Made by a program: the position numbers and the translations under genes | NCBI GenBank assembly: GCA_016987375.1 | Contig: PJRA01000343.1 | Span: forward strand, 888,036 to 952,035 | Source of the DNA: Brachionus koreanus | Lineage: Eukaryota; Rotifera; Eurotatoria; Ploima; Brachionidae | Direction: 5' to 3' | DNA length: 64,000 nucleotides | Notes under the pieces: model-generated | What the model was told of the DNA's origin: nothing | What the model saw: only the letters and a program-made list of their open reading frames with translations | The model's database searches: none | Shown: positions 15,174 to 44,795 of the stretch, piece after piece | How the letters are laid out: each line of letters starts with the position of its first letter | How positions within the stretch are numbered: position 1 is the first letter of the stretch

Positions 15174-15783
15174 CAAACAAGGTTAAAATTGATTGAATGA
15201 AAACAGTAGAAAAAATTTGGCAAAATTTTTTTTATTTTCCTATACAATAGTAAGTCTTTATACAAAATAAAAAATAAAATTTTTCAAAACTTTTGTGAAT
15301 ATTATCTAAAACTAAAACGATAAGATACTATCTTTTTTAAAAATAAAGAGAATAATTAAAAATTAAATCTTTTTCAGTCTTTTTTAAGATGACTTAAATT
15401 AGAATTTATCTAATTTTCATTAAAATTTGAATGATTTGATATTAGTGAAAAATTCGTGATAGCATTGTGGTGAGCTAATCAGTCTGTAATTAGACAAATT
15501 GTGATTCATAAATTTTGATCGAGTTTTTCAGATTGTCTAATCTAAATTCTTACTTCAAGATCTCGCATGGTTCAACTGGTTCTAAGTTTAATATTTGACG
15601 CTCTCATCGTCAAGGCTCAATTTTGCGGCACAAGAAAATTTTTTCGTTTTTAATTTTTCATCGCTTCTCAAATGATATAAATTGCTTGGATACTATCACA
15701 AACAGTTTATCTATTAGCGATTAAATATTCGCAAATAAGTGAAAATTTAGTTTTTAACTTTTTTTTTTTGGGAGCTATTAGAA

Positions 15784-18231
15784 ATGAGCTTGTATGAAGA
15801 AAAATATCAAGATTTCACGCGCTCTGTTAAATACTTTAAAAAGAATAGAGATCCGTATCAATTAATGGAAGACACAGAGGCATTTGAATGTCTATTAAAA
15901 ATAAAAAATTTGATTCAAGACGATTCATTTTTGGAAAAAAATACCGACTGGAGCTATTTGCTCAAGTACGAATTCGATAAAATTTTAACAAGTCTTTTTT
16001 CTAGCTACAGTCAAATTTGCAACTCGTTCAAACTCAAAAACTATGAATATAATGAGAGCCTAGAAAATCTAGAATCAAAGCCTAATGATAGAACAATTTC
16101 CATGCTTGTTTTCATCATTCAAATAACCTATAATTTGACCCAAATGGCAAGTTTAAATAATGAACTGGAGCTTTTCAATAGGCAATTGATAAACAACCAC
16201 ATAATAGATATTCTGTTGGAGTTTTATGATAAAGACATTTTTCTCAATGAGTACAACAAAAGCCTGGATATTCATCACCTTATGATATCGATACTGAAAA
16301 TTTTCAAAAATTTAGCCGAGCACAAATTTTTGGATAAAAAAACCTGGACCGAATTGGACATGGACAGAATACTGGCCGAATTTAGCAAAAAATGTCGCCT
16401 AGAGAGCCAATTTAACAAAGAGCTTAATTTTGTTTGCTCAAATTTAAACGAAGACTTTTCGGCTAAAAAGCTATTGGAAAGCCTTGAAAATTGCCAAGAG
16501 CCTGGTAGAATAATGAAAAATTATGACATTTACTGTATGTTTTTGAAATTATTTAAAATGACTCAGACAAAAAGCTTTCAACAATATGAGTTGTTTTTGT
16601 CTGATGAATTTATGCTTTACTTTGAAAAAATGCTCTCCTATGTCTCCGAAAACAGATTCAAATTTGACTTTGAGGATCAAGCTATTGAGCTTAACTATCC
16701 GAAAAATTCTCTGAGCTCAAATGAAACTCGAGTGTCAATACTGCACTATCTAACTTCATTGATAAACTCAATTTACTATTTTAAATCAAAGCGTAAAGAC
16801 TGCCTTACTGTCACAGAAAATAAGTTTTTTTTTATTTACATGAATATGTTGGGCGATAAGGAGTTTATTCAGCGTATGATTCAATGCCCTGTGGACATTT
16901 GCTACAACATTGTTGAATTTGTTTACTTAGTATCTAGAAATTCGCATAATGAAAAGGGCATTTGGTCCGAAATTCAAGCTTATGACACTTTGCAGCGCTT
17001 GGCCAAATTTTTACTTAAAACAAACGACAAAATGGACAATAAGGTATTTTTGTGCTATTGGGTTATGTGCTTTATTAGAGGAGAGACTTGGCCTGACAGT
17101 GACAAAATAGTTCGAACTACTATGGACATTTTGTTCCAACAATTGGATCCGGACAACATGAACGAAAATTTTTTGTTCGGACTTAAAATTCCGAAAAAAA
17201 ATCTTCTCAATTGTTTACGCCGCTTGGCCCTAAACGGCGAATTCAAAAGAGCAATTTACAAAAAATTTAAAATAATCAAAAGCTATATTTATGATGGAGA
17301 TGACAAAGAAAAATTTTACGCTCTAAGACTCTTAATTCAGCTCTGCTTTGATCCAGATTTGGTCGAACATATTCTTCAAGAGAGGGAATATTGTGATTTT
17401 TTGAAAAATTTCTACGAAATCGAGCTTAGCAAGAACAGCAAACTTTTTCACTCAGCTGAGTCTGTTTTATGGTTGCTCAATTTAATCAAGGACAGCGATG
17501 ATCCTAGCTTTGAGCCGGGCTATCGCACAGTGGTCATGATTTCTTTTGATAAATGTGACGAAAATCTGTGCCTGAAACTGAAAAAAAAATTAGAGAGTGT
17601 GGACTTTTATGTCATCACAAGTCAAAATAGCGTTCGATGCTTTGGTGTGCAAAATTGCCACGTTTTCCTAGCTTTAATTAACGAAAAGTATAGGTTGAAT
17701 GAATACTGTCAGATAGAAGCCCGCTATGCCGAGCATATTGGCAAACAACTTATAAGACTAAACACGCAGGAAAATTTTGACGAAGACGACGGTTGGATTT
17801 CAAGTGTTTTCAATCAAAAATTTTCTCTCAATCTACTCGGAAGCGATTTGGATAAATCCATAAAAGTGCTGCTGAATCATATGAAATCTTTGAGTTTAAT
17901 GGATGAAAAGCTACAACGCAGCAAGGATTCAAAAGAGTCTGATAAAACAAAATCTTCAGTTAGTAGAAGAGCAAGTGATGTTTTACCCACTTATACCTGG
18001 TCTAGCGATCAAGTTTCTGAATGGTTTGAGAAAAAAACTATAAATAAATCAATTGTTGCTAACTTGGGCAAGATAGATGGTAAAATTTTGGCCGAAATTT
18101 ACAAGATCAAGTGTGAAAGTGTTGACTTTTTTTATCAACGATTACTAGCAGAGAACGGAGATAACATAAAATTGAGTGATATTGCTCTATTTAAAAATTG
18201 TCTTGACGAATTATTTGAAAGCTCGAACTAA
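15784..18231 (+). CDS. Helical-repeat / TIR / SAM domain protein
   Basis: Intronless frame of 815 residues starting at the first ATG after stops. Residues about 60-570 are Leu/Ile-rich helices without low complexity, as in ARM/HEAT arrays. Residues about 578-690 form a TIR-like domain: YRTVVMISFDKCDENLC start strand and helix, then CHVFLALINEKYRLNEYCQI and EARYAE. In the family (HVMISY..., NCR-EAEYA) the Glu three residues after Cys is the position of the NAD-cleaving Glu of SARM1 and plant TIRs; here it is Glu645. Residues about 737-812 resemble a SAM domain (TYTWSSDQVSEWFEKKTI..., GKILAEIY). The BB-loop segment W-D---M-GS is shortened to ITSQNSVRCFG. The ARM-TIR-SAM order differs from SARM1 (ARM-SAM-SAM-TIR) and is, to my knowledge, an expanded invertebrate family. 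NADase activity is inference. AATAAA at 18245 is a likely poly(A) signal. Confidence 0.8.
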   Translation: MSLYEEKYQDFTRSVKYFKKNRDPYQLMEDTEAFECLLKIKNLIQDDSFLEKNTDWSYLLKYEFDKILTSLFSSYSQICNSFKLKNYEYNESLENLESKPNDRTISMLVFIIQITYNLTQMASLNNELELFNRQLINNHIIDILLEFYDKDIFLNEYNKSLDIHHLMISILKIFKNLAEHKFLDKKTWTELDMDRILAEFSKKCRLESQFNKELNFVCSNLNEDFSAKKLLESLENCQEPGRIMKNYDIYCMFLKLFKMTQTKSFQQYELFLSDEFMLYFEKMLSYVSENRFKFDFEDQAIELNYPKNSLSSNETRVSILHYLTSLINSIYYFKSKRKDCLTVTENKFFFIYMNMLGDKEFIQRMIQCPVDICYNIVEFVYLVSRNSHNEKGIWSEIQAYDTLQRLAKFLLKTNDKMDNKVFLCYWVMCFIRGETWPDSDKIVRTTMDILFQQLDPDNMNENFLFGLKIPKKNLLNCLRRLALNGEFKRAIYKKFKIIKSYIYDGDDKEKFYALRLLIQLCFDPDLVEHILQEREYCDFLKNFYEIELSKNSKLFHSAESVLWLLNLIKDSDDPSFEPGYRTVVMISFDKCDENLCLKLKKKLESVDFYVITSQNSVRCFGVQNCHVFLALINEKYRLNEYCQIEARYAEHIGKQLIRLNTQENFDEDDGWISSVFNQKFSLNLLGSDLDKSIKVLLNHMKSLSLMDEKLQRSKDSKESDKTKSSVSRRASDVLPTYTWSSDQVSEWFEKKTINKSIVANLGKIDGKILAEIYKIKCESVDFFYQRLLAENGDNIKLSDIALFKNCLDELFESSN

Positions 18232-28093: not shown

Positions 28094-31000
28094 ATGACAA
28101 AAAAAATTTTTCTAATTTTTATAACATTATTTTTGTGTCCTGATGAATTAAAGAGCAATTATTCCCCTAACAATGTTAAACTAGACATATCATATAGCAC
28201 AGAGTTTTATGATTATATGAAAGTCTTGGTCGAGCCTGATAAATCCATTTTATTCTGGTCAAAAAATCAATCCCACATTTTTTTTGAAATACATGTCCGA
28301 CTTGATGGCTGGATTGTTTTTGGTCTCAGTCCAAACGGTTCTTTGAATGGTTCCGATGTAATAATTGCCTGGTTGAATAACAATGGTATAGGATATTTTT
28401 CAAGTAATGCTAAATCTAGAAAGACAAAGTATACTACTTTTTTTTGTTAGATGGTCATATTGCTGATGAAATGAAACTGAATTATGATATAGGCTTTGAT
28501 TGGAAATTAATTTATTCAATGCGTAATGATGAAATAACAGTTTTTAAATTAGTTCGTAGAATTAAGTTGTGTAATCAAAATAATAACAAACTCGCATTCA
28601 ATAAAAATGGAAATTATATGATTTTTGCTTGGGGAAATTTGGATCAAGAAGTTTATTTTAACAATTCAAATGAGAAATTATTTTTTGATAGTTTTGTTAG
28701 CGAAAATTTTGAAGTAAGTTCTGATTTCTCAATATTTAATTTAATTAAAAATGTCAGTTTATTTATTTTATTAAAAATTATAAATCATTAATGAAAATAA
28801 AAACTTATGTCAGTTTGATAGTCCATTTTCTTTAATTAATTAAAATGTTTTTCATATTTTCAAAGTGTGAAAGCAATGATTTAAGAATAAAAAAGGAAAC
28901 TTTTGGTTCAAAACCAGTCGAAAATTACGAAAATTATGCTGAACTTCAAAAAGATGCTTATCATTTGTATTGGAATATATCAAATGGTTTTCTAATTGCT
29001 GAAATTCATGTTAAAACAATTGGATGGGTTGGATTTGGTATTAGTCCTGATGGGAAAATGAGAGATTCAGATGTTTTTATCGGATGGGTTAGAGATGGAA
29101 AAGTATATTATTCGGTAATATATTTGTATTTTCTTTTCTAAACAAGATATATGTTATAGGAACACATGTTTTCCTCAAAAACAAAATCAATTAAATTCAT
29201 ATTCTTAATCTAAAAGCTAAATTTTAATAAAAATTTATCTTTATCTTTAATAAATAACGTAATCATCCGAATTTAGTCACAAAAGAATCTTTTACATGTT
29301 ATAACAGCGTGTCACTAAAATAGAGTACTCTATTTTAAAGACATGTCATTAAATTCGGAAAATTACGTTATAATAGAATATTATGAGTAAAAAAATTTCT
29401 CATCAAAAAATTGCGTGAATATTAGTTAACGCCGCACTAAAATCTCAAAAAAAAATGATTTAAGTGCCTAAAAAAAATAGCTTTTTTGTTTTTTTTCAAA
29501 ATAAAAATTTAAAATTTCGAGATTTAGAGAAGATAGATTTTAAACTTTACTACTTTAAGCCATGAAAATTCTATTTTTTTAAGGCACTAAAACCAAATTT
29601 TTGTCGTTAAAAACATAGATTTGTAATATTTTTTAACTTTTCAAGTAAAATTTTATCCCTAAAATCAGTAAGAATTTCTAGGTTGAATTATAAATAATTG
29701 TCTTTTTTCTACATATTTGGATGAATTAAAATTAAAAACATTCATTGTTGCAACTTTTTTCCATAAAATATTTTTTCTAATAAACAAAAAAAAGACAAAA
29801 AATAGAACATCAATACAATTTAAATTGATTTGTCTTCCTGAAATAAAAAAAGGTTAAGTTTTATTTTAGATAAACAAGCTTTGTTGCAACAAAAAAGTGT
29901 GTTGCACTTTGGTGCAGTATATTTTTGAATGTATTTAACTTTTAATCAAAAAAAGAAAGAATTTTTTTAAATTTGTATTTGAATTTCATAATACAGTTAA
30001 AGCTTTTTAACCCGAAATATCAGGCACCCAAAAAAGGATGGTTCGGATTAATTTTTCCGAATAAACTTTAAAAATTGGAATTAAAAAAAATTAATTACTT
30101 GCAGAGTAGGTCAAAAGTCATAGTCAAGTCTGTACTTCAAGTGTGAATTTTAGATTTAGAAAAAACGTATTTTTTTATTTTAAAAATAGAAAATCAAACA
30201 AAAATGTCAATTAATAGAAGAGACCATTTAAAAAAAAGAAGTTAAATAAAGTGATCGTATTCTACTCTTTTTTAACATCTAAATTTAAATAAAAATTTTA
30301 GATTAAAGGATAAAATATATATGTTTTTTTTTTAGAAGATGCTGTAAAAATTTATATTTCAGTCAAATATTGAAATATTTTAAATTTTTAATTCGTCTGA
30401 ATCTCTTTTAGCTTTAAAACTGTCTATATTATTGAAACTCAGACTTTAACTTTAGCTTAAAATAATTTCAAAGTCAAATTTAAAGTCTGACTTTGACTTC
30501 TGACCAACTCTGATTACTTGATTGAATTTTAAAAACACTTTTTAAGACTTGAAAACTAATTTAAAATTGATATTGATATAACGTTTTATGAGTCTGATAT
30601 TTTTATCTAATAATTTTTACAGTTAAAAAAGCTTTGATTGTAAATTTTTTTATTTTCAAGTTATTTTTTCAAAAGATTTAGTCAATCTTATAAAATAACG
30701 GGTGTTCAAAAAGTAATGGCCGTTTTTTTTTAAATTAAAAAAAATAATTATGTTCCTCTAATCAAATGACTATAAAATTTTATACGAATGTAACTTAAAT
30801 TCTAATTTAAAAAAATTAATCATCATTTAATTTGAATGTTGTTTATTAATTGAATTAGACCAATGACATTGCCTAAGACCCTTTCATTAAAATGTCTCGG
30901 CAAAATAATTTTTAGGAAATTAAGTTTTATATATCATCTTATAATAGCTAAATTATTAAAAGTAGAACAAGCTTGTTATTCAAGCTTTTTGAAAAACTTT

Positions 31001-34000
31001 TTTTGTATTTTAATTGAGTATTTAATTACAAAATTGATGAATTTATCTTATTTAATTCAATAGTTATGATCAAATATGCTAAAACACTCGAATTTTTAGC
31101 AACAAAAAAAGTTTACCGTTTTGTTGAATTAAGTAGAATAGAACAGAACAAAAAATTGAATATTTTTATAACTTTTTTCAAAATGATCACTTGACTTTAA
31201 AAGTTCTTTAAATGCAGCATGGTACAACATTCATAGTTGTATAATTGAGAACAATATTCTGGTAAAACTGTGCAAATTTAGCATAATATAAATTAAAACT
31301 TTTTCACTTTTTCTTCTCCCAAATGAAATAAAGTTATTTTATTATTTGCTTTTTGTTCCAAAATTCACAATGCCGATTAATTTAAATATTTATTTAAAAG
31401 AAAAAATTTAATAAAATATTTAAGGATAGATACGTTTATGGTCGTAGATCAATAAATGACATAAACAATGATATTGAGCTGCTGAATGCCTTCGAGTCTA
31501 AAGGCTATACAGTGTTCAAAATAAAACGACCATTGGTTCTATGCGATCCCGATGATCGATCCATTGAGGTAGTTTATTCAAATGAATAGTAATTTGCACT
31601 AAATTTATTTATTTAGACGGGAACACCTTTTGTAATTTTTCCGTGGCACAATCATGATCCTGTAAACTCATATGAAATTTATTTGAACAATGATAATCAG
31701 TCAACTCAATTAAATTTTTTCAAAAAAGATGTAAAAATTTATTCTGGTGACAATGAGCATGTTTATACAATCAATTTACACAAAAAAATAATTCCTGTAA
31801 ATTATTTTCAATACTGTCAAGCTTTTCAAATTGCTAAAAATCTAACCAAAAAACATATCTATAAAGTAGTTAAATTGAGTAATTTTAGTTTAATTTAGAA
31901 AGCTAATTTATTTGTTCACAAGTGGTCAATTGAACTACCTCTGATTGATCCTCATTTAATTGCAGCTATAAAGCTTTATGAATGCTCACATGAATATTTA
32001 TTTACTAATGAAGTAAACTGTGATCTAAGCTTGAATTTAGCTTTTTGCAGTGAGTCATCAATAGGCTGGAGTCCAGGCGCAGAGCTAGTTGTCTCCTTTC
32101 CGGATGACACTGGCTATCCAATTGGCGCAGAAACTGATTATGGTTTTTTCATATTGAATGTTGAATTTATTGACGACGAACAGCCTTTTAGTAATATTTA
32201 CATAAATAATTTTTTACTAATTAATTAATTTTTTAATAAATAAGAATTCATTGATAATTTATCTATACATTTTTACTTGACTGATATATTGAGAAAAAAT
32301 GAATTGGGAAGTGTTACTTTGGGTACTGAGTCCGATCCTCTGGGAATATTGATTCCTCCCGGTCTTGACCGCTTTCCTGTCAATACATATTGCTTTAATT
32401 CATGCTTTGAAAATGTGAGATAATTTTAATGAAAATCGCTTTATTTTAAACTTTAATTAGCAGAAATTTGACTACGTTACATTTGTAATGGCTAGGCCGC
32501 AAACCCGTTTAGCTGGTATTCAAATATTTACCAAAATAATACGAAACAAAACAGATTTTGGTTATTTGCACAAAAGTCTCAATCACAATCACAAGTTACA
32601 ACATTTTTATGAACTAAATCCACGAGTGGTTGTCACTAAAGTAAATACTTAAAATATTACTAATAAAAGTTTAAAAATTAAGTTATAAAAAATTGCAAGT
32701 TTAGGCATTATTCTGCATTCATAAATCGTTTAAATAAACTAAATTTAAATTAAAATTAACCCAGAAAACAAATCCTAATAAAAATCTTAAGCACGACATG
32801 TCAAGTTCTTAATCCAGGACGTTATAGGATCCTAAAAGATTCCAAAAGATTTAAGATTCTTATGCTTTTCTTGAATTTTCTTAACACAAACTTTCTCTAA
32901 CTTATAAGATCTTATAAGATTCAAACCAGTTCTTGATTGACTTTCTTATGAGTTTTAATTAACTGATCCTTTTTAGATCTTAAAAGATCTTATAAGTATG
33001 AAAAATTTTGTGCTAAGAAAATTTAAGAAAATCATAATAATCTTAAATCTTTTGAAATCTTTCTAGGATCCTTTACCGTCCTGGATTAAGAACTTGACAT
33101 GTACTGCTTAAGATTTTTATTAGGATTTCGTTCCTGGGAAGTTTAACATTGAGTGCTTACTCTAAAAATATGCTTCTGCAATAAATTTTTTACTCAAAAA
33201 TATTTTAAAACCTTTTTTCAATGATTTGATCATAAACTTCAATTTGCTCAAATTTAATCAAAATTTGATGCAAAGTTAATTTTTAAAAAAGGGTTTCAAG
33301 TATATTTACACTAATAACAAGTGTAAATAAGTTAAATTTGATAAATTAAAAAATTGAATTTGAGAAAATTTTTTTAAAATCTACTTTTTGATTTTTTTTT
33401 TATTATTTGCTAGGATTTTCCCACATATCACAATTAGGTCTGGTATACAATGTATCCCAAGCCTTTCTATAATATTTTAATCAATTAATTTTCTCAAGAT
33501 ATTTCTAGTATTGAAATTTTTAATATAAGAAATTTGGGTTCAAAAGAATCGTAGTCCCGTAGTATCCATGTGATCTTGTAACCACAGTTAACATTAATCA
33601 TCTTCATTATGAAATTAACCGAGTAATGACTAAGTCTATTCAGATGTGAATTTATGTTACTATTTGTTTGGAAATGAATTTGTAAAGCAACAGAATGAAT
33701 TTGAAGAAATAAAGATAAATGTTTAGTCAGGCACATTGTCTTACCCGATAAAACTAACAAATATTGTATATTAAATTTTGGCTTCAAATTAGAAGTTTTG
33801 AAAAAAATTCTCGAAAATTTTCCTTTCTAATATTCTTTATCTAAAATCTTGGATTTTGATGTTTAAACGTTTTATTGATCAAGAATGACTTTCTAGTTTT
33901 TTCATCATAATTGCTGAAAAAACCTTCTTTAATAAGCAAATTATACCTTAATTAAATTTATAGTTTGTAAAAGATATTTTAAAAAATTTTATTTCTATCT

Positions 34001-34915
34001 TTAACATGTTTTTGGAGCAAAAGAATAATAAATAATAATAATAATTTTAAAATGGGTGAGATGGTGTTAAATGGTGTTAAATGAGTTTACTCTCAATTCT
34101 CAATCAAAAAGAATTAAGAAAAATTTTGCTTTCCAAAAAATATTGAATATAAATTTTAATTTTAAATCTAATTCTTTTTATTTAATTTAATTTTATTTAT
34201 TTAAGAATGACAGTTTAATCACCCAATGTGTTTATTCAACAAAGAATTTAACAAAAATAATTCAAGTAAAAATTAAAAAAATAAAAAATTTGAATAATTT
34301 TAAAATTAAAAAAAATCAAAGGGTGGATTGGGCCTGAATAAAGAAGTGTGTTTGTATAGTTATTTTTATTATCCGCGTTTAAACAATTTTAAAACATGTA
34401 AATCAATTCCGACATTCAATGACCAGATGCGAGTCTTCAAAAGACTCAGAGAGTTAGTTAAAATATTTTGTTAATATTAAAAATCTAAACCATCTTTTAT
34501 TTAGGCAAAATGTTTTAAATTTCACAAATTTTTTTAATAATTCCAAACTAGCTACACTTTATGAAGCGTATGATAGTTTGAATAAAGTTGAAGAATTTAA
34601 TGACAGTCTGCTTCAGAGTTTTTTTTCTATTTATTTATCAAGCAATTTCTTCGCCATATGCGATGTAAGAATTTTCTTTTAAATTTTTTTTTAATTTCTT
34701 GATTTTTATTTTAGGGTTCATTCAACTATGAGTCTCATGAACGTTTGCTGGTGAAAAGTTTTAGCCAAAAAATGGACCAATGTTATTTGAAAATAAATAA
34801 ACAAAAGAATATATTGTCTCTATTTACTTCGAAATCAACATATGTAAAGCAAAGTTTTAGTTTTATTTTGTTTTTTCAAAGCGCAATAATTGTTTTAATA
34901 AAAATATTGCTTTAA
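28094..34915 (+). CDS. moxd1-like: DBH/MOXD-family protein with two DOMON domains, copper ligands lost
   Basis: Twelve exons: 28094-28403, 28451-28713, 28866-29114, 31425-31568, 31617-31865, 31899-32190, 32245-32414, 32461-32640, 34206-34265, 34322-34452, 34505-34664, 34715-34915; 802 residues (human MOXD1 has 613). Order: signal peptide MTKKIFLIFITLFLC; DOMON 1 (about 35-190, EIHVRLDGWIVFGLSPNG); DOMON 2 (about 210-345, EIHVKTIGWVGFGISPDG); the two copper-monooxygenase domains (IGWSPGAELVVSFP, ILIPPGLDRFPV, RLAGIQIF, SLITQCVYSTKN, GGLGLNKEVCLYSYFYYP); and a hydrophobic C-terminus (about 780-800) for membrane or GPI attachment. Fold-defining Cys and Gly are kept, but all six copper ligands of PHM/DBH are replaced: HH by Ala427-Ala428, H by Glu494, HxH by Gln573-x-Arg575, and Met by Val648. 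Introns and frames are intact, so it reads as a secreted or cell-surface pseudoenzyme rather than a pseudogene. The phase-0 join at 28713/28866 is inferred; two separate genes are possible. Confidence 0.85.
29254..29371. repeat. Short foldback element in intron 3 of the MOXD-like gene
   Basis: ATAACGTAATCATCCGAATT (29254-29273) is inverted at the right end (29350-29371) with 20 of 22 bases pairing over the full arm. The centre holds a perfect 22-bp palindrome, TAAAATAGAGT and its complement, at 29316-29337. No coding capacity; probably a small MITE. Confidence 0.6.
30698..30725 (+). repeat. mariner/Tc1-like terminal repeat (single end)
   Basis: ACGGGTGTTCAAAAAGTAAT followed by GGCCG resembles the terminal repeat of mariner-type elements. 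I could not find the opposite end in the following 2 kb, and the frames that follow are broken. It lies in the 2.3-kb third intron of the MOXD-like gene. Confidence 0.25.
32703..33248. mobile_element. Broken copy of the 337-bp MITE, split by another insertion
   Basis: 32713-32735 (TTCTGCATTCATAAATCG) and 33150-33248 (TATGCTTCTGCAATAAATTT through GATCATAAACTTCAATTTGC) match consecutive parts of the MITE at 58957-59293. The intervening 379 bp is an unrelated foldback element. The left terminus of the MITE is missing. It lies in intron 8 of the MOXD-like gene. Confidence 0.6.
32760..33138. mobile_element. 379-bp foldback element inserted in an older MITE
   Basis: Begins CCCAGAAAACAAATCC and ends GGATTTCGTTCCTGGG; arms of about 150 bp pair imperfectly (for example ACATGTCAAGTTCTTAATCC with its complement at 33072-33101, and CTTATAAGATCTT words near the centre). 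TTAA occurs just outside both ends (32756 and 33143), but four extra bases stand at the right side, so a TTAA duplication is only possible. No coding capacity. Confidence 0.65.
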
Positions 34916-41005: not shown

Positions 41006-44000
41006 TTAATCGCTAGTTTCAGATTTGACTTGAGAAAAATACATCGGATCTGAAAATATCCATTTTTGAGATTTGCTGTCAGGGTCACAATTCATCGTCA
41101 TTATTACTGAATTTCTTAGTTCACTAATTCCCAAACAAAGACCAGATCCTCGGTTTTTTAAAAATTTTCTATGTTCATCGTAATCCCACACTTGAAGCGC
41201 TTCGGATTCTCGACAAGTACTTAATTTTACTGTGCCACCTTTGACTGTAGATTCCAAACACAAACCCATACCTATTAGATTTTTTTTTATCGAATATTCA
41301 ATCATTTGATTTCCTCCTTTTCCATGACACGATGAAGCTCCGCAGTCTTCGCCACTTTTTCTTTTTAAAACATCCAAACAAAAATTATATTCTTCATTTT
41401 TTATCTATTAATAAATAAAATTTTAAACAAAATGATTTATAAATTATTTGAATTTTTCATACACTTCCTAGATGATAATAGTACAAAGGTAAATGTGTTT
41501 CAGGATAAATATTGTCCAAATACCATCTGAAAGATTTACATTGTAATTTTTTTCTTAATTCAACTCGGTTAGTTATGTTTCCAGCTTCAACTGTTAGCAA
41601 GTCTGGCATAACATTGTAGAAATATTTTGAGTATTCATCGGTCCATACCTCAATAACTCGTCGTGTGTTTCGGAAAATTACTTTATTGGTACCACCTGGA
41701 AATTTGTAAGGCGTTTTTTTTCTAAAAACGTGACCAACATGACTACAAGGTAGAATCAACAAAGTTCCGCCACACATCCAAATCTTAAAAATATTGTCTC
41801 ACTTTACTTTGCTTAAATGAATTTTTTTTCTAATAAATACTCTGAGAGACAATTCGATGTTTTCAGCACCCCAGATATCCATGCCTTCGTCATAAGCACC
41901 AAGTTCATAGAAAAAATTCCTTTCAATAACAAACAAGCCGCCAGCCATTGTTGGAGTTCTAAAATTCACTAAATTATATAAAAATTGAACTTAAAATTGC
42001 AGTGTCAAGATGAAACAGAATGACTCAATCCTGTCCTGATATATATATCTCACTCAACTCAAAAAGTCGTTTAGAGACTGTTAGTAATTTAAGTTTTTTA
42101 TTTGATTATTTATTTGATTAAAATTTTATTATTTTAAGTGTTGAATTGCATCGAGTGTTTTTAAAACATTTACCATTGGGCTAAATGTGAGTTTTGAGTC
42201 AAGCTTAATGCTTAACTTTTTCTTCACATTTTAAATTTTAAGGTCTAAATTAATTTTTGATTTAGTACATACTTAGAGAGTGCAGTGATGTTATGAAAGA
42301 GTGCAGTGAACCGCTGTCTTTTTGTTTAAATTATCATTCGAGTCTAGTATGATACCAGCTTGTTGGAAAAGAGCTAATGTTACTTCAGTATACAAGAAGA
42401 AAGGTTGTACAACAAATCATGAAAACTACCGTCCAATATCGTTTTTATCGATATTAATAAAAATAATGGAGAAGCTAATAAGAGATGAAATGGTAATGCA
42501 TTTATCGGAACAAAAATTACTTTCTGTTCATCAACATGGTTTTATGCGTGGTAAATCCTGTGTAACCAATTTGTTAGAAACTTTAGATATAATCACTGAG
42601 GCCCTGAATAGAGGATTCAGTGCTGTGGTAGTATTTTTAGATTTCTCGAAGGTGTTTGATCGCGTTTTGCATAAGGTACTAAAGATCAAGTTAAACAGCT
42701 ATGGATTCACCGGAAAGCTTTTGGTGTAGCTCGAAAATTTTCTACAAGATAGGAAACAGAGAGTAATGATAGGTCAGTATAAATCTGATTGGGTTGATGT
42801 GCTAAGTGGGGTTTCACAAGGTTCAGTTCTTGGTCCGTTACTATTGACAAGATGGTTGAGTGGTCGAAACGTTTGAGTATGGAATTTAATGAATCTAAGT
42901 GTAAAGTAATGTATATTGGCAACTCAAAAATTGCTAGGCAAAAAATCTCAATGTTAAGTGCAGATAATTTCAGAGTTGAATTAGCTGAGACTAATGCTGA
43001 GCGCGATCTTGGTGTAATTGTGAACAACAAACTCAAATGAAATGATCAAATTGACATCTGCGTTAAAAAAGCTAACAACATGCTTGGTATGCTCAATTGT
43101 TTTTGCAGCTTTACAAAACATATGTTAGAAGAGGGATATATTTAGACTTGAACAAGTACAAAGAAGAGCAACGAAACTTGTTCCACAAATAAGAAGTTTG
43201 AATTATGAGTCAAGATTAGCTAACTTGGGATTAGAAACAATAAAAGATTGGCGAGGGCGTGGAGATCTTATTCAATTTTATAAAATCCACAAAAATTACA
43301 ATCATGTCAATTGGTACTAAAATGCGAAACTCATGAGCTCAGTGAAAAATGAAAGACCAAGTGGAGGTGTAAGAGGAGCAAAGCATCGCATATGCTCGAA
43401 GCTAACAAAATGTGAAACAAGACGAAACTTTTTATCAAATCGAGTAGTGAACAATTGGAATGTGCTGCCAACGTAGCGGGAGTAAAGAAGTAATCCTATC
43501 AAATGACATAAACGAATTTATCAAAGTGGATTCTGAAACTCCAATTCATTATTATTATATAAAAAATATTGTACCTTAAAGGTAACGATTCGTCATTACT
43601 TCTTCTGAGATCTTCACGCTTAGGCACTGGTACCCAATGAAATACAAATTTTGCATCAAAACCTCCATAGGTTTTTTCCGAGCCGGATGCATAACCAAAA
43701 TTTTGATATGATATGACATCTATTATCGGATTTACAACTGCTTTTCTATTACGAAAAAAAAAATTTTAAATGAAAAAATAATTAATTTTTAAATAAAAAT
43801 TCAAAAACCTATTTTTTTTAATTTCAAATAGCAAAGGCGGCAGCCATCCATTTGTGCATTCAATATGAGCATCAAGAAACGTGATTGTGTCCCCACTGGC
43901 CGCATTTGCACCCCTCAATCTAGATCTCATTAAACCCATGCGAACCTGGTTGCGAATTATTTTGACCGGCACAGGCAAAGTTTTAACAAATTCATCAAGT

Positions 44001-44795
44001 GGTTCGTGCAAGTATTCTCTATCCACACTGGCGTCATCAACGAGAATTATTTCTTTCAGATACCGTTTTGGACTTTTGTTGCAAATGCTGGTTAGTCCTC
44101 GCAATAAAGTCGAGTTTCCTTCATTGTGGTAGACTATAACCACACTAGTATTTGGAAGATCTATCGGATAAGAACGTTTTTTACATCTTAAGAAATATGC
44201 ATAAAAAAAAAAGATACTAATTTATTTAAATTAAATAATACGAGTCAGATCGAATGTCTGGAATAGACCGATTCAAAGCGATTAAATCCGAGGCAACAAT
44301 ATCAAACTCGTTTTCTTTAAATCTTTCCTTAGAGCTTTCTTTTAAATTATCAGGTATGTTGACCCCTTTGCCGTTTTCGCCATGCCAATCGGGTGGGTTT
44401 GTCGACTCGTTGGAAAACTCTTCAACCATCCACTCAGAATTATCATTGTCTGCTTTTTGTTTTTCCAGCTCAGGGCCTCTGATAAGCAGTTCTTCTAAAG
44501 ACTTGGGCTGTATGTCTAGTTTGGGTAAAATTTTATATTCCTTGGTAAATGATTCATTTTCTTCAACACTTTCTTTTGGCAGCAATTTGAAAAGTTTTGA
44601 ATACATTTCTTGATTTTGAACTAGTTGCATTTCAAGATTGTTGATTCGAAATTGACACTCATCTGTAATTGAAACTTTGGTTCGAATGTTGAATAAAGTA
44701 TGATAAAAACCAGCACCAACTATCAGCCATATAAAAGAGGTTAAAACGATTGCTTTGATGATTGATGTTTGAATGTCATTTTTTTTGGTGATCAT
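41006..44795 (-). CDS. galnt: Polypeptide N-acetylgalactosaminyltransferase (GALNT family)
   Basis: Golgi type II enzyme that starts mucin-type O-glycosylation by moving GalNAc from UDP-GalNAc to Ser/Thr. Six exons on the minus strand: 44795-44242, 44186-43809, 43745-43575, 41958-41841, 41783-41463, 41404-41006; 646 residues. Order: short cytoplasmic tail; signal anchor ([17 protein letters not shown], about 15-32); an unusually long acidic stem to about 175; GT-A catalytic domain with ILVDDAS, the metal-binding LDAH of the DxH motif, [17 protein letters not shown], a [13 protein letters not shown] motif (WGGEN in most relatives) and [20 protein letters not shown]; and a ricin-type lectin domain ([29 protein letters not shown]). 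The body is closest in my memory to the GALNT1/13 group. [10 protein letters not shown] replaces the usual HNEAWSTLLR. All catalytic blocks look intact. Intron 3 (1.6 kb) carries a dead LINE; the others are 55-63 nt. Confidence 0.93.
42280..43566 (+). mobile_element. LINE (CR1/Jockey-type) in intron 3 of galnt, defective
   Basis: On the strand opposite to the host gene. RT blocks in order: [91 protein letters not shown], then a jump straight to [20 protein letters not shown]. The segment that should hold the catalytic (Y/F)ADD box is deleted. Later blocks are [34 protein letters not shown] and [16 protein letters not shown], with several stops. The 3' end is ATT-repeat-like (about 43548). It is 5'-truncated before the RT domain. 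Confidence 0.8.

Follow-up and report, generated by a model that had tools for sequence, protein, structure and literature searches.

The window analysed here is a 64,000-nucleotide stretch of the Brachionus koreanus genome (assembly GCA_016987375.1, contig PJRA01000343.1, forward-strand positions 888,036 to 952,035), and on its plus strand, at positions 28094-34915, lies a DBH/MOXD-type gene. An earlier reading made from the letters alone (the sequence-only reading) had described this gene as a copper monooxygenase relative of twelve exons and 802 residues in which every copper ligand is lost. The gene indeed has 12 exons, with GT..AG borders at all 11 introns and no internal stop codon, and a spliced aligner that we wrote ourselves recovers the same model. 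The length of 802 residues did not hold, as the acceptor of exon 6 is most likely located at 31923 (cacaag/TGG) rather than at 31899; the correction removes 8 residues from the 801 of the model built on the 31899 acceptor and leaves a protein of 793 residues. We moved the acceptor because the resulting join, HIYK/WSIELPLIDPHLIAA, aligns by eye with HIYK/WELVFPKINAKRIHH of the paralogue L016 residue by residue and without gaps, and because an intron occupies this same position in five paralogue models (L014, L016, L017, L018, and L019).

Exon 1 (28094..28403) encodes a signal-peptide-like start (MTKKIFLIFITLFL, by eye) and the first part of DOMON 1, the remainder of which is found in exon 2 (28451..28713). 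DOMON 2 begins in exon 3 (28866..29114), continues through exon 4 (31425..31568), which holds the equivalent of DBH C154, and ends in exon 5 (31617..31865), where the CuH domain starts. Exon 6 (31923..32190 with the corrected acceptor) continues the CuH domain, while the CuM domain is spread over exon 7 (32245..32414, with the equivalents of DBH C390 and C394), exon 8 (32464..32640), exon 9 (34206..34265, C466), and exon 10 (34322..34452, C488 and C503), where it ends. Exons 11 (34505..34664) and 12 (34715..34915) encode the C-terminal region, the latter including the stop codon. All of these lie on the plus strand. Paralogue proteins match exons 1 to 10 in tblastn, with further evidence from Pfam for exons 3 and 5 and from the protein alignment for exons 4, 7, 9, and 10, and four introns (after HIYK, CFEN, VVTK, and KIIQ), including both that flank exon 8, are position-matched in several paralogue models. 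Exon 11 had no tblastn match from four paralogue queries and exon 12 had a chance-level match only; these two exons are placed by their open frame, by a spliced alignment of exon 11 to the L010 locus, and by a genome search in which residues 616-786 match the same locus (E 1.5e-17, 26% identity). No stops, frameshifts, or broken splice sites of the kind that mark a pseudogene were found in the 12-exon model. The protein ends in 21 hydrophobic residues (773-793), with 17-residue segments of mean Kyte-Doolittle value >1.6 starting only at 773-777; this stretch is a possible glycosylphosphatidylinositol (GPI) signal or tail anchor. Given this end and the signal-peptide-like N-terminus, the rotifer protein is likely to be secreted and membrane-tethered.

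In the 801-residue model, Pfam detects two DOMON stretches followed by Cu2_monooxygen (34.9 bits) and Cu2_monoox_C (76.1 bits), both above their cut-offs (30 and 23, respectively), and the best phmmer match among PDB sequences is human DBH (4zel; E 1.3e-25, residues 224-676), with PHM entries at E 0.012 or worse. Thus, the monooxygenase fold is recognizable, as the sequence-only reading had it. The protein shares with human dopamine beta-hydroxylase the DOMON-CuH-CuM order, ten aligned core cysteines, and six DOMON aspartates, whereas it differs in its two DOMON domains, its hydrophobic C-terminal end, and its complete lack of copper ligands. A protein tree groups the gene with L010, L016, and L017 (support 100/99), and a larger tree places it within a 12-row clade (100/99). 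Among named proteins, the gene and its paralogues come closest to the Brachionus DBH-like monooxygenases 1 and 2 (MOXD1 and MOXD2), but those MOXD-named matches that cover all six ligand positions retain all six. MOXD2 is reported to be membrane-bound (PMC4125168), and in apes, toothed whales, and birds it is reported to have been inactivated, either by loss-of-function mutations or by loss of the gene (PMC4125168, PMC4830563). By sequence criteria, the gene is a member of the DBH/MOXD/PHM copper type II monooxygenase fold family that lacks the defining ligands of the enzymes.

To place the ligands, we used a multiple alignment of the protein with nine paralogues and human DBH, omitting two PHM types, and took the DBH numbering and the roles of ligands and disulphides as given in PMC4846438. 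The DBH ligands H262, H263, H333, H412, H414, and M487 correspond to A419, A420, E486, Q564, R566, and V639 of the 793-residue protein (427, 428, 494, 572, 574, and 647 in the 801-residue model). The alignment therefore bears out the claim that all six are changed; the numbering given in the sequence-only reading agrees with the 801-residue model up to 494, so that it apparently used the same exon 6 acceptor, while its last three numbers are one higher. On the plus strand, the His-His 262/263 site reads GCA GCT (31962..31967), the H333 site GAA (32163..32165), the His-Thr-His 412-414 site CAA ACC CGT (32500..32508, encoding Q564-T-R566), and the M487 site GTG (34346..34348), where the ligand codons of L010 are CAT five times and ATG. 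The alignment contains 43 invariant columns, and the gene retains 34 of the 37 non-ligand columns compared with none of the six ligand columns (Fisher p 1.4e-5, the columns not being fully independent). When each of the other proteins was left out in turn, with its near-identical sister dropped where present, every one of them kept the full set of ligands and 80-100% of the other invariant columns. The gene also retains all ten core cysteines of the DBH disulphides that the alignment covers, together with the six aspartates that surround the putative metal site of the DOMON domain. Matched by eye, 14 of the 15 L010 cysteines are present in it too, both C-terminal ones among them. As judged from this alignment, the loss is targeted to the copper ligands.

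The 83 Mb genome (92 contigs) was searched with the two copper domains as queries, and the resulting locus counts are lower bounds. At least 11 other copper-monooxygenase loci are present, and the 11 that were modelled comprise a canonical DBH/Tbh (L009), two PHM (L011 and L013), and the DOMON-bearing MOXD types L010, L012, and L014-L019. The HH, H, HxH, and M motifs are retained in 11/11 of these (spliced translations, by eye), making the gene the only ligand-less member among the copper-monooxygenase loci found in the genome. No near-copy of it was seen in the genome search, the best other locus reaching 38%. Over 77% of its length, the core of L010 shares 85% identity with a DBH-like monooxygenase 2-like protein of B. 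plicatilis, and over its whole length it shares 70% with a protein of B. calyciflorus. In a 34-row tree of database relatives (described below), the gene falls outside the group (97/94) in which L010 sits with proteins of B. plicatilis and B. calyciflorus. The duplication that gave rise to it may thus be older than the divergence of those species, although the long branch of the gene makes this placement unsure.

Some of the other loci deserve separate mention. L016 and L017 (contig C24, about 389-391 kb and 397-401 kb) are near-identical double-DOMON DBH-like genes in opposite orientation, several kb apart, and are probably a recent inverted duplication; each has all six copper ligands. L014 and L019 are near-identical single-DOMON MOXD-type copies on separate contigs (C53 and C5), one of which is perhaps a duplicate or alternative haplotype. 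Three further loci, L020, L021, and L022, were considered as additional ligand-less members and were not counted. They encode a MOXD-like DOMON, no copper domain was seen downstream in the ~9 kb stretches inspected, and they are possibly DOMON-only descendants of the family.

Both a codon model and a neutral-decay test bear on whether the gene is maintained. With its own omega (the ratio of nonsynonymous to synonymous substitution rates, dN/dS) on the branch of the gene, the codon model rejected omega = 1 under three topologies, twice the difference in log likelihood (2 delta lnL) being 31.4, 22.6, and 28.3. Separated by domain under one topology, the values were 26.9 for the copper domains (280 codons) and 6.4 for DOMON 2 (161 codons). 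A free omega on the branch gained only 4.0-4.3 in 2 delta lnL over the background omega. The neutral-decay test covered 0.005 to 2 changes per base, ignored indels, and took the L010 codons as the ancestor; it gave a joint probability of at most 1.7e-9 for a sequence that loses six ligands, retains 34 or more of the 37 other columns, and acquires no stop in 793 codons. Among the columns that are invariant in five subfamily enzymes, the gene retains 35/53 in DOMON 2, 20/33 in CuH, and 39/52 in CuM (66, 61, and 75%), a distribution over three domains that would be expected if the protein were needed as a whole. Taken together, these tests, which stand in for a between-species comparison and include time before the ligands were lost, suggest a maintained protein. 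They agree with the sequence-only reading, which had argued for a kept fold with a use other than hydroxylation rather than simple decay, and which named binding, secretion control, and scaffolding as candidate roles.

Several points weigh against this interpretation. The branch is fast, with 1.48 changes per column in the protein tree compared with 0.26 for L010, and its length in the codon model ran to its bound, leaving the numeric value of omega unusable; the omega test itself spans time both before and after ligand loss. Each of the five subfamily enzymes, left out in turn, retains at least 83% of the subfamily-invariant columns, and the lower retention in the gene therefore points to a weaker constraint than the one acting on the live paralogues. 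Three further residues that are invariant in the alignment with DBH are lost as well (T228, Y230, and N336 in DBH numbering), and these are probable neighbours of the copper site. The neutral-decay result is compatible with a former pseudoenzyme that has only very recently been freed from selection. Finally, no orthologue was found among the database proteins, where the 801-residue query had 0 matches and the 468-residue core had 9; the search required shared short words and a length 0.55-1.75 times that of the query, such that it could miss an orthologue that is fragmented or poorly predicted. The Brachionus matches of the core are 39-42% identical and retain the ligands, and none is orthologous as far as could be seen.

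The long branch, the looser constraint, and the lack of an orthologue among the proteins searched are also what one would expect of a pseudogene that is young or still forming, with a frame still open by luck. Such luck would have to extend over 793 stop-free codons and 11 GT..AG introns, while under neutrality 0.02 changes per base already reduce the chance of a stop-free frame to ~3%, and 0.05 reduce it to <0.03%. The losses are also concentrated at the copper site, and the joint probability given above applies to decay into the present state. We consider a pseudogene improbable, and instead regard a selected, copper-free DBH/MOXD pseudoenzyme as the probable identity of the gene, a reading for which the sequence comparisons argue with good, though not complete, confidence.

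This reading is supported by the existence of a second ligand-poor member of the family with a predicted DBH-like fold. Database searches returned 71 relatives, 34 of which have a residue in each of the six ligand columns and an aligned length of at least 331 residues; the other 37 rows were dropped as DOMON-only, partial, or misaligned, including P0067 (partial, with six ligands) and P0071 (a second isoform of P0070). All six ligands are retained in 32 of the 34, the exceptions being P0038 and P0070. P0038, a bdelloid protein with I at H333, was considered as a further loss and was treated as a faulty prediction, with gaps at 7/37 invariant columns and a CuH domain below the Pfam cut-off. P0070 is RvY_16507 of the tardigrade Ramazzottius varieornatus, which has S, S, R, H, G, and T at the ligand sites and thus keeps one of the six. 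Like the rotifer protein, it has DOMON and both copper domains, all three above the Pfam cut-off, and it retains 9/10 core cysteines and 30/37 invariant columns. The three non-ligand residues missing from the rotifer gene are missing here as well, an overlap with a chance of 0.0045, and these positions vary in at most 3 of the 33 six-ligand matches. In contrast to the rotifer gene, it has a single DOMON, different replacements at the ligand sites, and neither glycine of the GG motif, and it groups with another tardigrade protein (P0037), a pairing that is itself flagged as joining long branches. The supported branches of the 34-row tree require the ligands to have been lost twice, and RvY_16507 and the rotifer gene come together in 0% of 200 bootstrap trees. 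The ligand losses in the two therefore seem to be independent events on the evidence of this tree, in which both are long branches. An AlphaFold2 model of RvY_16507 (mean pLDDT 79.6, 26 sequences) has human DBH as its top Foldseek match (E 1.4e-43, TM 0.64 by query and 0.80 by target), followed by PHM; this result is weak when taken alone, because the underlying alignment consists mostly of enzymes.

A different possibility is that the rotifer protein is still an enzyme that performs new chemistry in the same cleft, either without a metal or with a different one coordinated by E486, Q564, and R566. The largely retained fold and the polar or charged nature of some replacements (E, Q, R) are compatible with this idea, but A, A, and V are non-ligands, leaving neither half of the protein with three ligand-type side chains; the probable site neighbours T228, Y230, and N336 are gone as well, and the tardigrade parallel carries different replacements. 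We therefore think new chemistry quite unlikely. It is highly unlikely that the gene model misjoins exons and that the true transcript restores the ligands, since, despite two long introns (2.3 and 1.6 kb) and an exon 6 acceptor that needed correcting, the ligand codons are internal to exons 6, 8, and 10, with paralogue-aligned sequence on both sides, four introns are position-matched with paralogues, and tblastn with four paralogue queries found no extra homologous exon in the introns that could restore His or Met (matches outside exons at E ≥0.34).

If the gene does encode a selected pseudoenzyme, it would have originated by duplication within the Brachionus-type double-DOMON subfamily. Without the ligands, neither copper would be held, and the protein should be incapable of hydroxylation by the known chemistry of the family. 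A ligand-free fold is feasible, as apo-PHM is reported to closely resemble the holoenzyme (PMC6123673). The same study reports PHM single-site mutants (H107A, H108A, and H172A) that, like apo-PHM, keep the fold minus one or both coppers, although these are laboratory mutants with a single ligand changed in each. With less certainty, the protein may act via its surface, most likely by serving its active double-DOMON paralogues as a scaffold or non-catalytic partner or by binding ligands with its DOMON domains. Such surface roles are more likely than that of a substrate decoy, because no peptide substrate is reported as bound to apo-PHM, H108A, or H172A (PMC6123673). The most economical mechanism would be a tethered partner or scaffold of the live double-DOMON paralogues. 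Its choice over DOMON ligand binding or some other role is a guess that we hold only tentatively, even granting the pseudoenzyme. A dead paralogue that regulates a live enzyme has a known counterpart in the trypanosome AdoMetDC prozyme, which is reported to activate its partner (PMC5201418, PMC6221367), but which belongs to an unrelated protein family and pathway.

Domain searches label the rotifer protein a copper monooxygenase despite the absence of every copper-holding residue of the family, and such genes should not be counted among amine-synthesis enzymes. Among the open-licence papers listed in our literature searches, judged by titles and the beginnings of abstracts, we saw no description of a DBH/MOXD/PHM member that naturally lacks the copper ligands. 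MOXDs are stated to be not functionally characterized (PMC10244343), and the function of the DOMON domain is stated to be largely unknown (PMC4846438). Two independent cases would provide a natural test of the roles of the non-catalytic surfaces and DOMON domains in this family. More broadly, we see roughly balanced prospects for the idea that at least two animal lineages, rotifers and tardigrades, have converted the DBH/MOXD fold into an extracellular protein that works in binding or regulation without copper, with the copper sites and the same three neighbours removed, the disulphide frame kept, and the products misnamed as monooxygenases.

Other features were also noted during the analysis. 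A bdelloid spliced-leader motif is absent from the genome, which says little. Elsewhere in the window, an 826-residue open frame occupies 15751-18231 on the plus strand, and its last 816 codons have no Pfam match at E 0.001. On the minus strand, exons for a Ricin-B-type lectin and a family 2 glycosyltransferase are found at 41006-41404 and 43766-44221, respectively, and perhaps belong to one GalNAc-transferase gene. Between them, on the opposite strand, lies a reverse transcriptase fragment (42310-42729).

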